Source: Coleofasciculaceae cyanobacterium
GTDB taxonomy: Bacteria > Cyanobacteriota > Cyanobacteriia > Cyanobacteriales > Xenococcaceae
Reading direction: 5' to 3'
Length of the DNA stretch: 64,000 nt
Assembly: GCA_036703275.1 (NCBI GenBank)
Contig: DATNPK010000011.1
Coordinates: forward strand, 186,001 to 250,000
Shown here: piece by piece, positions 17,815 to 21,198 of the stretch
Layout of the letters: each line of letters starts with the position of its first letter
Position numbering within the stretch: the stretch's first letter is position 1
Notes under the pieces: model-generated
What the model was told of the DNA's origin: nothing
Seen by the model: the letters and a program-made list of their open reading frames with translations, nothing else
Database searches by the model: none
Position numbers and translations under genes: made by a program

Positions 17815-19197
17815 ATGGTTGTACTTTCTACCGTAAATGAGCGATTTATTGCCAGTTTAAAACAAAGAAGAGATAAGTTGGCACAATTAATTGAGCAGCC
17901 AGTTATTTTATGGTCTGGTAATCTAATTGGGCGCAATTTTCAAGCTAACAAGTTACCCTTCCGTGCTAGTAGTCATTTTCTCTATTTTGCGGGAATACCT
18001 CTAACCAATGCGGTTATTCGTTTGGAAGCTGGTAAACTAGAGTTGTTTATGGACGATCCGCCACCAGCAGCAACTTTATGGCATGGCGCAACGCCTCAAA
18101 GAGAAGAAATTGGTGCAGCAATTGGTGCAGATTGGGTTTATCCTCTGGCTGAATTATCAGCAAAAACAGCAGGGGCAGCCACTATAGCAGTACAAGACTT
18201 ATCTACCTATCAGCAGCAATGCCACTTATTAAATCGCACGGTAGCTTTATCTAATCAGGCAGAAAGTATCGATCTAAAACTAGCTCAAGCTTTGGTAGAA
18301 TTGCGATCGCGTCACGATGATCTCGCCTTAGAGGAATTACGCTACGCTGCTGCGGTATCAGTTAAAGCTCACAAAGCAGGAATGCTCGCTACCAAACACT
18401 CTACAACCGAAGCAGAAATACGCGGAGCAATGGAAGGGGTAATTATCGCCCACAATATGTCTTGTGCCTACAACAGCATTGTTACGGTACAGGGAGAAGT
18501 ACTGCATAACGAGTCTTACGATCATCAGCTACACTCGCAGGATCTATTGCTGGCAGATGTCGGGGCAGAAACTCCCAACGGTTGGGCAGCAGACATTACT
18601 CGTACCTGGGCAGTTTCGGGTAAGTTTTCTAGTACCCAAAAAGATATTTATCAGGTTGTCTTACAAGCCCACGATGAATGTATTGCCAAGCTACGCCCTG
18701 ATGTAGAGTATCAGGATATTCATTTACTGGCAGCCGAAATAATTGCCGCAGGTTTAGTAGATTTAGGCATTCTTCAAGGCAACCCAGAAGATTTAGTGGC
18801 AATGGATGCTCATGCCCTGTTTTTTCCTCACGGTGTCGGACATTTATTAGGTTTAGATGTTCACGACATGGAAGACTTAGGCGACGTGGCAGGATATGAA
18901 CCAGGAAGAAGTAGAAGCGATCGCTTTGGCTTAGGATATCTGAGATTAAACCGCCCCCTACAGTCAGGAATGTTAGTTACGATCGAACCAGGCTTTTATC
19001 AAGTACCCGCTATTTTAAACGATCCTGATTTTCGCGTTAAGTATCAGAATGTAGTTAACTGGGAACGTTTGGCACAGTTTGCTGATGTTAGAGGTATCCG
19101 CATTGAAGACGATGTTTTAGTTACTGAATCTGGTTCAGAAGTTTTAACAGCAGAGTTACCAACTAAGATAAATGAGATTGAAGACTTAATATTATAA
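17815..19197 (+). CDS. pepP: Aminopeptidase P family metallopeptidase (M24B)
   Basis: 460 residues. An N-terminal creatinase-like domain (FRASSHFLYFAGIP) precedes the pita-bread catalytic domain. Ligands of the dinuclear metal site are recognisable: Asp in LLADVGAE, Asp in GWAADITRTW, His in FPHGVGHLLGLDVHDME, Glu in VTIEPGFY and Glu in IRIEDDVLV. The enzyme removes N-terminal residues preceding proline in the cytoplasm. It is complete and monocistronic; the gap downstream carries a group II intron. Confidence 0.93.
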   Translation: MVVLSTVNERFIASLKQRRDKLAQLIEQPVILWSGNLIGRNFQANKLPFRASSHFLYFAGIPLTNAVIRLEAGKLELFMDDPPPAATLWHGATPQREEIGAAIGADWVYPLAELSAKTAGAATIAVQDLSTYQQQCHLLNRTVALSNQAESIDLKLAQALVELRSRHDDLALEELRYAAAVSVKAHKAGMLATKHSTTEAEIRGAMEGVIIAHNMSCAYNSIVTVQGEVLHNESYDHQLHSQDLLLADVGAETPNGWAADITRTWAVSGKFSSTQKDIYQVVLQAHDECIAKLRPDVEYQDIHLLAAEIIAAGLVDLGILQGNPEDLVAMDAHALFFPHGVGHLLGLDVHDMEDLGDVAGYEPGRSRSDRFGLGYLRLNRPLQSGMLVTIEPGFYQVPAILNDPDFRVKYQNVVNWERLAQFADVRGIRIEDDVLVTESGSEVLTAELPTKINEIEDLIL

Positions 19198-19351
19198 ACA
19201 TTCAATTACCAAGAATAAACCTGACTATTAATGTTAAATAAATATAAATGCCTAATCTTTTGGATAATCGACATGACAAAGAGGCTTTAAAAGAACTTAA
19301 GTCAAGACCAAAAAGATGGCATTGTTTCCCTGGTTTTAATATCTAATAAGA

Positions 19352-20174
19352 GTTAGGGGTCGAGCCAGAGATCGCTCTCTGACACTCCCATTCAAAACCG
19401 TGCTTGCGACTTTCACCGCACACGGCTCCTCCTGGCTTTTCGGTACTTTATATTTCGTTCCTTTTAATCTCACGCTAAACCGCCTTGGAAGGGTCAGTTT
19501 TAAATCCTTCTGTACGCATTTGCGTATTAAGCATATTAAGAACTACTTATTTTCCTATTCAGCTCAGGGCTGTACGTCAGCGTATCTCAGATATTACATC
19601 CATCCCTGTCGGGCATTACCTGTTAATTCAGGTTAAGCATTGGCTTTTTACAGCATCCTACTCCCATATTTCATACGCTTCACATCTGGTTTATCAAGAT
19701 AAGGTCTTGATAGAAATATGGGGTTATCTCGTTCCCTAAACTCATTTCGCGTTGTTGTTAGTCCCTAATCTCTACTCCGAGAGGTATATTGATGAGATAA
19801 TATTATTAATAAATAGAATTAATATCTTTTAATCTCTTTCTTATAAAAGAGATTCAACCTCTATTGCCTTTTGGCTGTAGTGTATTAAGCCGTTCCACTA
19901 CTTTATATTTACGAAGCTTAAAATTAGTTAGACTTTGTTGAACTTAAACAACTTCCCTTGCGGAGTTACCGAATTCGGCTATCAGCTATCCGCTTTTATC
20001 CTAGCTTTGCACCACGGGCGATGTTACCTAGCAGCACATAGGATATGGATTCAAAATGTCTCATTCATTGGTAGGAATTTAACCTACATGAGTTTAGAGT
20101 TATTGTATTTTCTAGGTACTAGATTATACCCTCAGCGTTCCTACAAATTGTAGTTAGGCTGAAACGAGTCGCAC
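19352..20174 (-). mobile_element. ORF-less group II intron, about 823 nt
   Basis: Read on the minus strand, the element begins GTGCGAC at 20174-20168, fitting the GUGYG 5' consensus. Domain V is the 34-nt segment 19428-19395 (starts GAGCCGTGTGCGG, has GAAAGTCGCA, ends CACGGTTT). Domain VI follows, with stem CAGAGA-GCGA-TCTCTG, a candidate bulged branch A in CTCGACC eight bases from the end, and a terminal AC at 19352. EBS1 sits in a hairpin loop at 19838-19844 and is the exact 7-nt complement of the 5' exon end (IBS1, 20175-20181). No maturase frame is present, so splicing or mobility would need a protein in trans. All features appear intact. The flanks belong to no recognised gene. Confidence 0.88.
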
Positions 20175-20221
20175 ATAAGAATATATAATATAGCAATTCT
20201 TACCTTTATAAGGTACACCTC

Positions 20222-20372
20222 AATTAGCCCGTGCATGATTAGCGTCTGGAGACGCGTCCCATGAACCATTAGCCCGTGCATGATTAGCTCCTTACGTCCT
20301 AAAGGACGACGCGAAGCTAGTGCTTTAGCATACACCTTCGGATATCGCGTCCCATTGACTATTAGCAAAAAC
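20222..20372. repeat. Modular intergenic repeat cluster (copy C)
   Basis: Short modules of the window-wide repeat family: ATTAGCCCGTGCATGATTAG occurs twice, then CCTAAAGGAC, GACGCGAAGCTAGT and CACCTTCGGATATCG. It lies between the intron 5' end and the methyltransferase gene. It lacks the 37-bp core found in copies A, B, E and F. Confidence 0.7.
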
Positions 20373-20415
20373 CAAGGTGTCAGACTGTACCTTACGTAAA
20401 TGAGAACCGCTATAT

Positions 20416-21198
20416 ATGTGGAATCCAGAAGATTATGCCAAAAACTCTGATGCTCAATTAAAATGGGCGCGATCGCTAACCAAGAATTTAAACTTAGAAG
20501 ACTATCAGTCGATTCTTGATGTTGGGTGTGGAGATGGCAAAATTACCGCTGACTTTGCAACTACTTCACCTCAAAGCCGAATAGTCGGGGTAGATAGTTC
20601 ACCTGAGATGATTACTTATGCCGAGCGCAAATATCCTCTAAGTCAATATTCCAATCTAGCTTTTAATTGCATAGACGCGCGATTAATTAATTTCCAGCAA
20701 GAGTTTGATTTAATTTTTTCCAATGCCACTCTTCATTGGGTAAACGATCATCAGGCATTTCTCAAAGGTGCAAATAAAGCGTTAACACATCGGGGAAGAC
20801 TAATTATTTCCTGTGGCGGGAAGGGTAATGCTGCTGAGATTTTAGAGACTTTTGATGAGTTAACAACTTCTGATGATTGGCAAGCTTACTTTAATGATTT
20901 TCATAATCCTTATTTCTTTTATGGACTTGAAGATTATCGGATTTGGTTAGAAAAATCTGGTTTTGCGATCGCGCGTTTGGAGTTAGTGCCAAAGGATATG
21001 ACTCACCAGGGAAGAGAGGGATTAGCAGGTTGGATACGCACTACCTGGATGCCCTTTACTAAGTATGTTCCAGAAGAACACAGAGATGAATTTATTGCTC
21101 AGTTTGTCGAGTTGTATTTGGCTAACAATCCTTTGGATGAGAATGGATTAACTCACGTTTCCATGGTTAGATTAGAAGTCGATGCTAATAAAGTTTAA
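20416..21198 (+). CDS. Class I SAM-dependent methyltransferase (trans-aconitate methyltransferase-like)
   Basis: 260 residues. Motif I is ILDVGCGDGKIT, followed by VGVDSSPEM and a DLIFSNATLHWVNDH post-motif segment. The opening MWNPEDYAKNSDAQLKWA and the TLHWV motif resemble trans-aconitate 2-methyltransferases and related small-molecule methyltransferases in the cytoplasm. The actual substrate is uncertain. It starts immediately after repeat copy C, so its promoter must lie within or beside the repeat. Confidence 0.82.
   Translation: MWNPEDYAKNSDAQLKWARSLTKNLNLEDYQSILDVGCGDGKITADFATTSPQSRIVGVDSSPEMITYAERKYPLSQYSNLAFNCIDARLINFQQEFDLIFSNATLHWVNDHQAFLKGANKALTHRGRLIISCGGKGNAAEILETFDELTTSDDWQAYFNDFHNPYFFYGLEDYRIWLEKSGFAIARLELVPKDMTHQGREGLAGWIRTTWMPFTKYVPEEHRDEFIAQFVELYLANNPLDENGLTHVSMVRLEVDANKV

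Follow-up and report, generated by a model that had tools for sequence, protein, structure and literature searches.

A family of ORF-less group IIB introns in a cyanobacterial genome, with two tandem hairpins where EBS1 is expected

ORF-less group II introns have been called rare in bacteria, where they nearly always occur together with related ORF-bearing introns (PMC4424553; here and below each source is cited for selected passages). The closest described systems are cyanobacterial: in Thermosynechococcus elongatus, introns lacking an ORF move with the help, in trans, of proteins encoded by other introns (PMC2882425), and 10 of the 17 introns documented to splice in vivo in Trichodesmium are without an ORF (PMC4649490). 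The intron described here is of an already known kind, group IIB, ORF-less and T. elongatus-like. It shares with the TeI3 families F3-F6 a cyanobacterial host, class IIB, the lack of an ORF, a high copy number and matched EBS/IBS pairs, and the likeness extends to insertion into other introns and an IS element, apparent exon shuffling between copies and the presence of ORF-bearing introns in the genome. It differs from the T. elongatus introns, as portrayed in those passages, in that a closely related ORF-bearing RNA was not found in the genome and in having two tandem hairpins, either of which may fit the exon, depending on the copy (PMC2882425). Trichodesmium erythraeum likewise has ORF-less introns and an intron within an intron; its twintron, however, joins two distantly related introns that each carry an ORF, whereas here inner and outer intron are of one family and no ORF is seen (PMC4649490). 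C.te.I1 of Clostridium tetani is also ORF-less, its EBS1 region is unusual and an EBS2 is not evident, but it belongs to class B, has a shifted 5' splice site and resides in a genome without an intron-protein gene (PMC3919590, PMC4424553).

We analysed a 64,000-nt stretch (the window) of contig C11 from a host genome of 5.62 Mb in 116 contigs, and confirm that the element listed first in Table 1 is a complete ORF-less group II intron. We estimate at about 85% the probability that it is a IIB intron whose family expanded in this cyanobacterium through retrohoming, at sites picked by base pairing. For splicing and reverse splicing, the intron RNA would rely on a reverse transcriptase/maturase encoded by another intron. 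As pairing across copies suggests, the 6-9 nt that end the 5' exon would pair with the domain I loop EBS1, and base 1 of the 3' exon with EBS3. EBS1 would lie in the first tandem hairpin (H1) in some copies, that of the window included, and in the second (H2) in others. Below, copies are named after their contigs.

Table 1. Positions of the intron and its parts in the window
Feature	Position	Strand	Basis or remark
Complete ORF-less group II intron, 823 nt	19352..20174	-	shared ends, RF00029, covarying fold
Intron ends	5' end 20174, 3' end 19352	-	
IBS1, TTCTTAT, final 7 nt of 5' exon	20175..20181	-	7 Watson-Crick pairs with H1 loop
Hairpin H1, intron nt 321-344	19831..19854	-	holds EBS1; fold, position, pairing
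EBS1, AUAAGAA, intron nt 331-337, inside H1	19838-19844	-	
Hairpin H2, intron nt 349-379	19796..19826	-	fold, pairing tests; loop misfits window exon, fits in C15 and C111
EBS3, intron nt 403, G	19772	-	G-U pair with 3' exon base 1 (T)
IBS3, 3' exon base 1, T on minus strand	19351	-	
Domain V, 34 nt	19395..19428	-	RF00029 alignment
Domain VI hairpin, candidate branch A at 19360	19356..19389	-	four compensated pairs
Domain IV, short, without ORF	19449..19538, approximate	-	alignment; limits judged by eye

The limits of the element follow from its copies. The ends GTGCGAC...CCTAAC are common to six full-length copies in the host genome and one copy in Chondrocystis sp. NIES-4102, with differing flanks (the C60 copy ends in CCTGAC), and GTGCG...AC at the exact copy ends agrees with the group II rule of 5' GUGYG and 3' AY. 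A preliminary description of the locus, made from its letters alone, had thus given the coordinates, the strand and the GTGCGAC 5' end exactly. It had also named a canonical 34-nt domain V, a candidate bulged A eight bases from the terminal AC in domain VI and a 7-nt EBS1 match to the 5' exon, and had proposed a covariance-model search and folding into domains I-VI as checks. Its account is borne out, the bulge of the A staying a candidate: domain V matches RF00029 with 52.3 bits (E 2.2e-7; gathering score 40), the candidate branch A is intron nt 815 with 8 nt 3' of it, and the seven Watson-Crick pairs of the EBS1 loop are equalled at 0.35% of random sites. The minimum free energy has a z-score of -5.1 against 20 shuffles. 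An RNAalifold consensus of eight complete copies (the six of the host, NIES-4102 and G001_L079, from a relative) contains 211 pairs, 49 of them with both partners replaced in one or more copies, and describes a conserved fold around domains I-VI, the domains being assigned by eye; in domain VI, four pairs have both sides changed, in three sequences. The single ORF of at least 80 aa inside the intron is antisense and without a Pfam match. Within domain IV lies the sequence TTAAAAC/TGACC, the point where the C34/C68 copy is interrupted by a second intron. A different ORF-less intron (C34n, L063:924-1973) has an approximately 80-nt domain IV segment 90% like that of the family, the rest differing; a like segment occurs in L087 of genome G024.

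As the preliminary description had it, the location is intergenic: the intron lies between an M24 peptidase gene (17815-19197, plus strand) and a methyltransferase gene (20416-21198, plus strand), antisense to both. Among 13 loci of relatives compared, L157 of G024 alone also matched along the methyltransferase gene; the neighbouring genes recur there with no intron between them, and the intergenic DNA is too divergent to show the exact empty-site junction. The nearest copies are 89% identical, so the window copy itself is not recent. It might then be a dead relic that no longer splices or moves, activity being confined to other or past copies: its intergenic, antisense position fits this, as do the lack of a near-identical copy and of any promoter-like site found on the intron strand within 19150-20500. 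The fold and both the EBS1 and EBS3 pairings are nonetheless intact, and we regard a relic as unlikely, though a serious contender. Two neighbouring features may be recorded. Thirteen bases beyond the intron 5' end begins a MITE-like stretch (20188-20415) with 30-nt imperfect inverted ends (73% complementary), and 19248-19347 holds a truncated small ORF, whose counterpart at this position in G024 (L157) is intact and matches it over 59 bases.

The host genome contains 31 domain V matches. Besides the window copy, full-length copies occur in C111 (89% identity to that of the window), C60 (89%), C15 (88%), C16 (85%) and C25 (84%); recent multi-copy spread to EBS-fitting sites is indicated by these six, by the exon pairing and by identical stretches at contig ends. 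The contig ends C108/C64, C34/C111 and C99/C103 have exactly 141 bases in common, of which 135, 135 and 140, respectively, are intron, and their flanks differ. We read 141 as the assembler's word length, so that these pairs would be identical stretches at different sites; identical intron between different flanks in three pairs points to recent copying. C68 and C70 also agree over 141 bases, with one difference in 218. Among the matches listed in a similarity search of the genome, no contig holds the interiors of the contig-end copies, and C108/C64 were left out of the copies with known hairpins. C60 is inserted in sense in a PAS/histidine-kinase-like frame and C25 in sense in a TnpB-like frame (gene names by eye); both frames run on in phase beyond the intron, and splicing would restore the interrupted messages. 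A separate group II family, with one domain V-VI sequence in L067 (C86), L058 (C84), L059 (C17) and L061 (C32), includes a member with a stop-free 598-aa RT frame.

A seventh copy is split. Its nt 1-678 lie at C34:9865-10514 and run directly into the start of another copy, and on C68 the end of a copy runs directly into nt 676-823 of the split one. In the relative G019 the C34 5' flank (85%) and the C68 3' flank (70%) occur in one locus, approximately 0.9 kb apart with order and strand kept, which supports an intron nested in an intron, although the argument is weakened by the many partial matches of the C68 flank elsewhere, 44 of them in the host genome. The last bases of the 5' exon of the inner copy at C34 agree at 14 of 15 positions with the exon of the copy starting C111. 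C34/C68 is thus a probable twintron. The 3' flank at L064 contains (query 597-650) a short dispersed repeat with many matches in the host genome, G014 and others.

C16 possibly has a different history. Judged by eye, part of a sensor is encoded in its 5' exon and a receiver domain in its 3' exon; the relative G014 has matches to both flanks on one contig, approximately 2.5 kb from each other, in two adjacent frames of the same strand. C16 could be a chimera, formed when two intron copies recombined and the intervening DNA was lost, a case like that reported in T. elongatus (cited passages of PMC2882425); recombination would explain why its 5' exon fits neither loop while its EBS3 fits. Against this, receiver domains are common, the 3' flank having matches in 25 of 27 genomes, with the best in G001 rather than G014. 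For C15, the 3' flank has a 93% match in G020, where the 5' flank has none, and a recombination-free origin of this copy is not demonstrable.

One domain I column, where EBS3 is expected, pairs with the +1 base of the 3' exon in all eight copies (seven Watson-Crick pairs, one G-U) and is the only alignment column to do so; when the +1 bases were shuffled, a column of this kind arose in 108 of 5000 trials. Because a domain I base pairs with +1 in 8/8 copies, assignment of the family to subgroup IIB is supported.

For the 5' exon, the region between AGAGG and CCTCT, where EBS1 is expected, folds into two tandem hairpins in all six full host copies and in G001_L079. Five partial relatives whose 5' exon is uncertain (L080, L100, L131, L132, L083) have the two-hairpin look by eye, the NIES-4102 and G005_L104 introns have one hairpin each, and the outer C34 copy has lost DNA here, leaving neither hairpin clear. 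The end of the 5' exon fits H1 in three copies (window, C60, C25) and H2 in two (C15, C111); the exons of C16 and G001_L079 fit neither. IIB-type EBS1-IBS1 pairing is therefore found in five of the six full host copies, through one or other hairpin, C16 being the exception. Pairing was required to start inside the loop and from exon base -1, and its score was compared with 20,000 sites drawn at random from the window; loop borders were set by hand. The loop-start rule was tightened after the data had been seen; an earlier rule let pairing begin in the 5' arm and gave strong off-diagonal matches, such as C11 H2 with the C60 exon. Fractions of random sites for H1/H2 are 0.0035/0.48 in C11, 0.0046/0.29 in C60 and 0.0088/0.58 in C25, as against 0.12/0.0021 in C111 and 1.0/0.0025 (0.00245) in C15; C16 (0.66/1.0) and G001_L079 (0.94/0.77) stand apart. 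The single stretches score 0.0023 in NIES-4102, 0.011 in G005_L104 and 0.0034 in the outer C34 copy, the last carrying little weight since its fold has no hairpin exposing the stretch; C34 outer and C111 have a common loop and hence are not independent.

Over the six host copies, Fisher combination gives 2.5e-4 for H1 and 3.5e-3 for H2. The true assignment of exons to loops is the best of all 720 by the sum of better-loop scores, and the true value is reached by 21/720 permutations for H1 alone and 17/720 for H2 alone; the looser rule with 13 exons gives permutation values of 0.0047 (H1), 0.049 (H2) and 0.0008 (better loop). It thus seems that either of two neighbouring hairpins, depending on the copy, recognises the insertion site, a detail that may be new, drawn from a handful of copies and statistics; in the literature listings searched and the passages of a few papers, no precedent for two EBS1 hairpins was recognised. 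H1 could instead be the sole EBS1, the H2 matches of C15 and C111 being due to chance. H1 does fit the window copy, C60, C25 and the single-hairpin NIES-4102 and G005_L104 introns, and the permutation values of H2 alone are modest under both rules, but chance would have to yield two H2 matches at 0.0021 and 0.00245 of random sites in the very copies whose H1 loops score 0.12 and 1.0, which makes this improbable.

In the canonical IIB order EBS2 comes before EBS1. H1 might accordingly be EBS2 and H2 EBS1, with the H1 matches at the exon junction secondary. C15 lends itself to such an arrangement, its H2 pairing with -7 to -1 and UAAUU of its H1 being able to pair with AAUUA at -12 to -8, as well as is seen at 0.375 of random sites; the exons of C15, C108 and C64 moreover have in common an IBS2-like CAAT[TC]A at -13 to -8, overlapping the place of IBS2 in TeI3c. 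H1, however, pairs with -1 to -6 or -7 in three copies whose H2 does not pair there, and upstream exon pairing of the unused hairpin, as expected of an EBS2, is not above chance in five copies. We consider this order the least probable of the alternatives, and retain alternate use of the two hairpins. The IBS1 GAATTA at contig ends C108 and C64 fits H1 of C15 (fractions of random sites 0.006 and 0.010). Over 135 nt the C108 sequence does not differ from C15, nor does that of C99 over 140 nt, but the 3' exons at C99 and C103, which probably belong to the C108/C64 copies, start with A, a misfit to the EBS3 A of C15, so the interiors probably differ.

A bolder extension, to which we give somewhat less than even odds, is that every two-hairpin RNA possesses two interchangeable EBS1 loops, that a single lineage can thereby home to two unrelated targets and that loss of one hairpin leaves a working intron, as NIES-4102 suggests. 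If a single ribozyme can receive its 5' exon from either of two hairpins, recognition of exons would have a modularity not appreciated so far, one that recalls the U5 loop that holds exons (a parallel drawn in a passage of PMC4424553), and intron-based gene targeting would gain a second programmable site. The preliminary description did not include the second hairpin, EBS3, the remaining copies or the RT genes found elsewhere.

That description had found no maturase, which holds in cis; genome-wide it does not, as there are 10 GIIM (maturase-domain) and 11 RVT_1 (RT) matches elsewhere. Nor is dependence on a maturase in trans the rarity it was taken for, being not unusual in cyanobacteria going by the passages on T. 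elongatus (PMC2882425) and Trichodesmium (PMC4649490). That the window intron, if mobile, would need a protein in trans is supported. The related ORF-bearing intron for which it had proposed a genome search did not turn up: none in the host genome has a closely similar RNA, the nearest by ends and domain V being the weakly similar C24b and C84a. C24b encodes an intact intron protein in a 624-aa frame, with RVT_N, RVT_1, GIIM and HNH domains, that passes TIGR04416; its RNA has chiefly the 5' end and domain V in common with the family. The C24b protein as maturase partner is a guess. In G001, an ORF-less family member at locus L099 directly precedes DNA resembling a C24b-type intron from domain I to the ORF, a hint that the member is nested in such an intron; its upstream side is not in the contig, and the G001 sequence also occurs in Hyella patelloides records. 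The origin of spliceosomal introns is modelled on ORF-less introns of this protein-borrowing sort.

Among genomes of the same family, 21 of 27 (host included) have a match at E 0.001 or better, nine of the 21 having none better than 1e-15; in the same order, 19 of 291 genomes match at 1e-15, scoring being limited to two candidates per genome. Viral contigs and phages yielded no family members, and a genome contig collection yielded three matching stretches. Plasmids were also searched, and over all searches few members had hairpins and a sure 5' exon; one that does, G001_L079, is the copy whose exon fits neither hairpin. We take the host for a cyanobacterium from the neighbourhood of Chondrocystis sp. 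NIES-4102, since plasmid 3 of that strain carries the related copy (83% over 79% of the query), with pieces of an IS66 transposase annotated on both sides.
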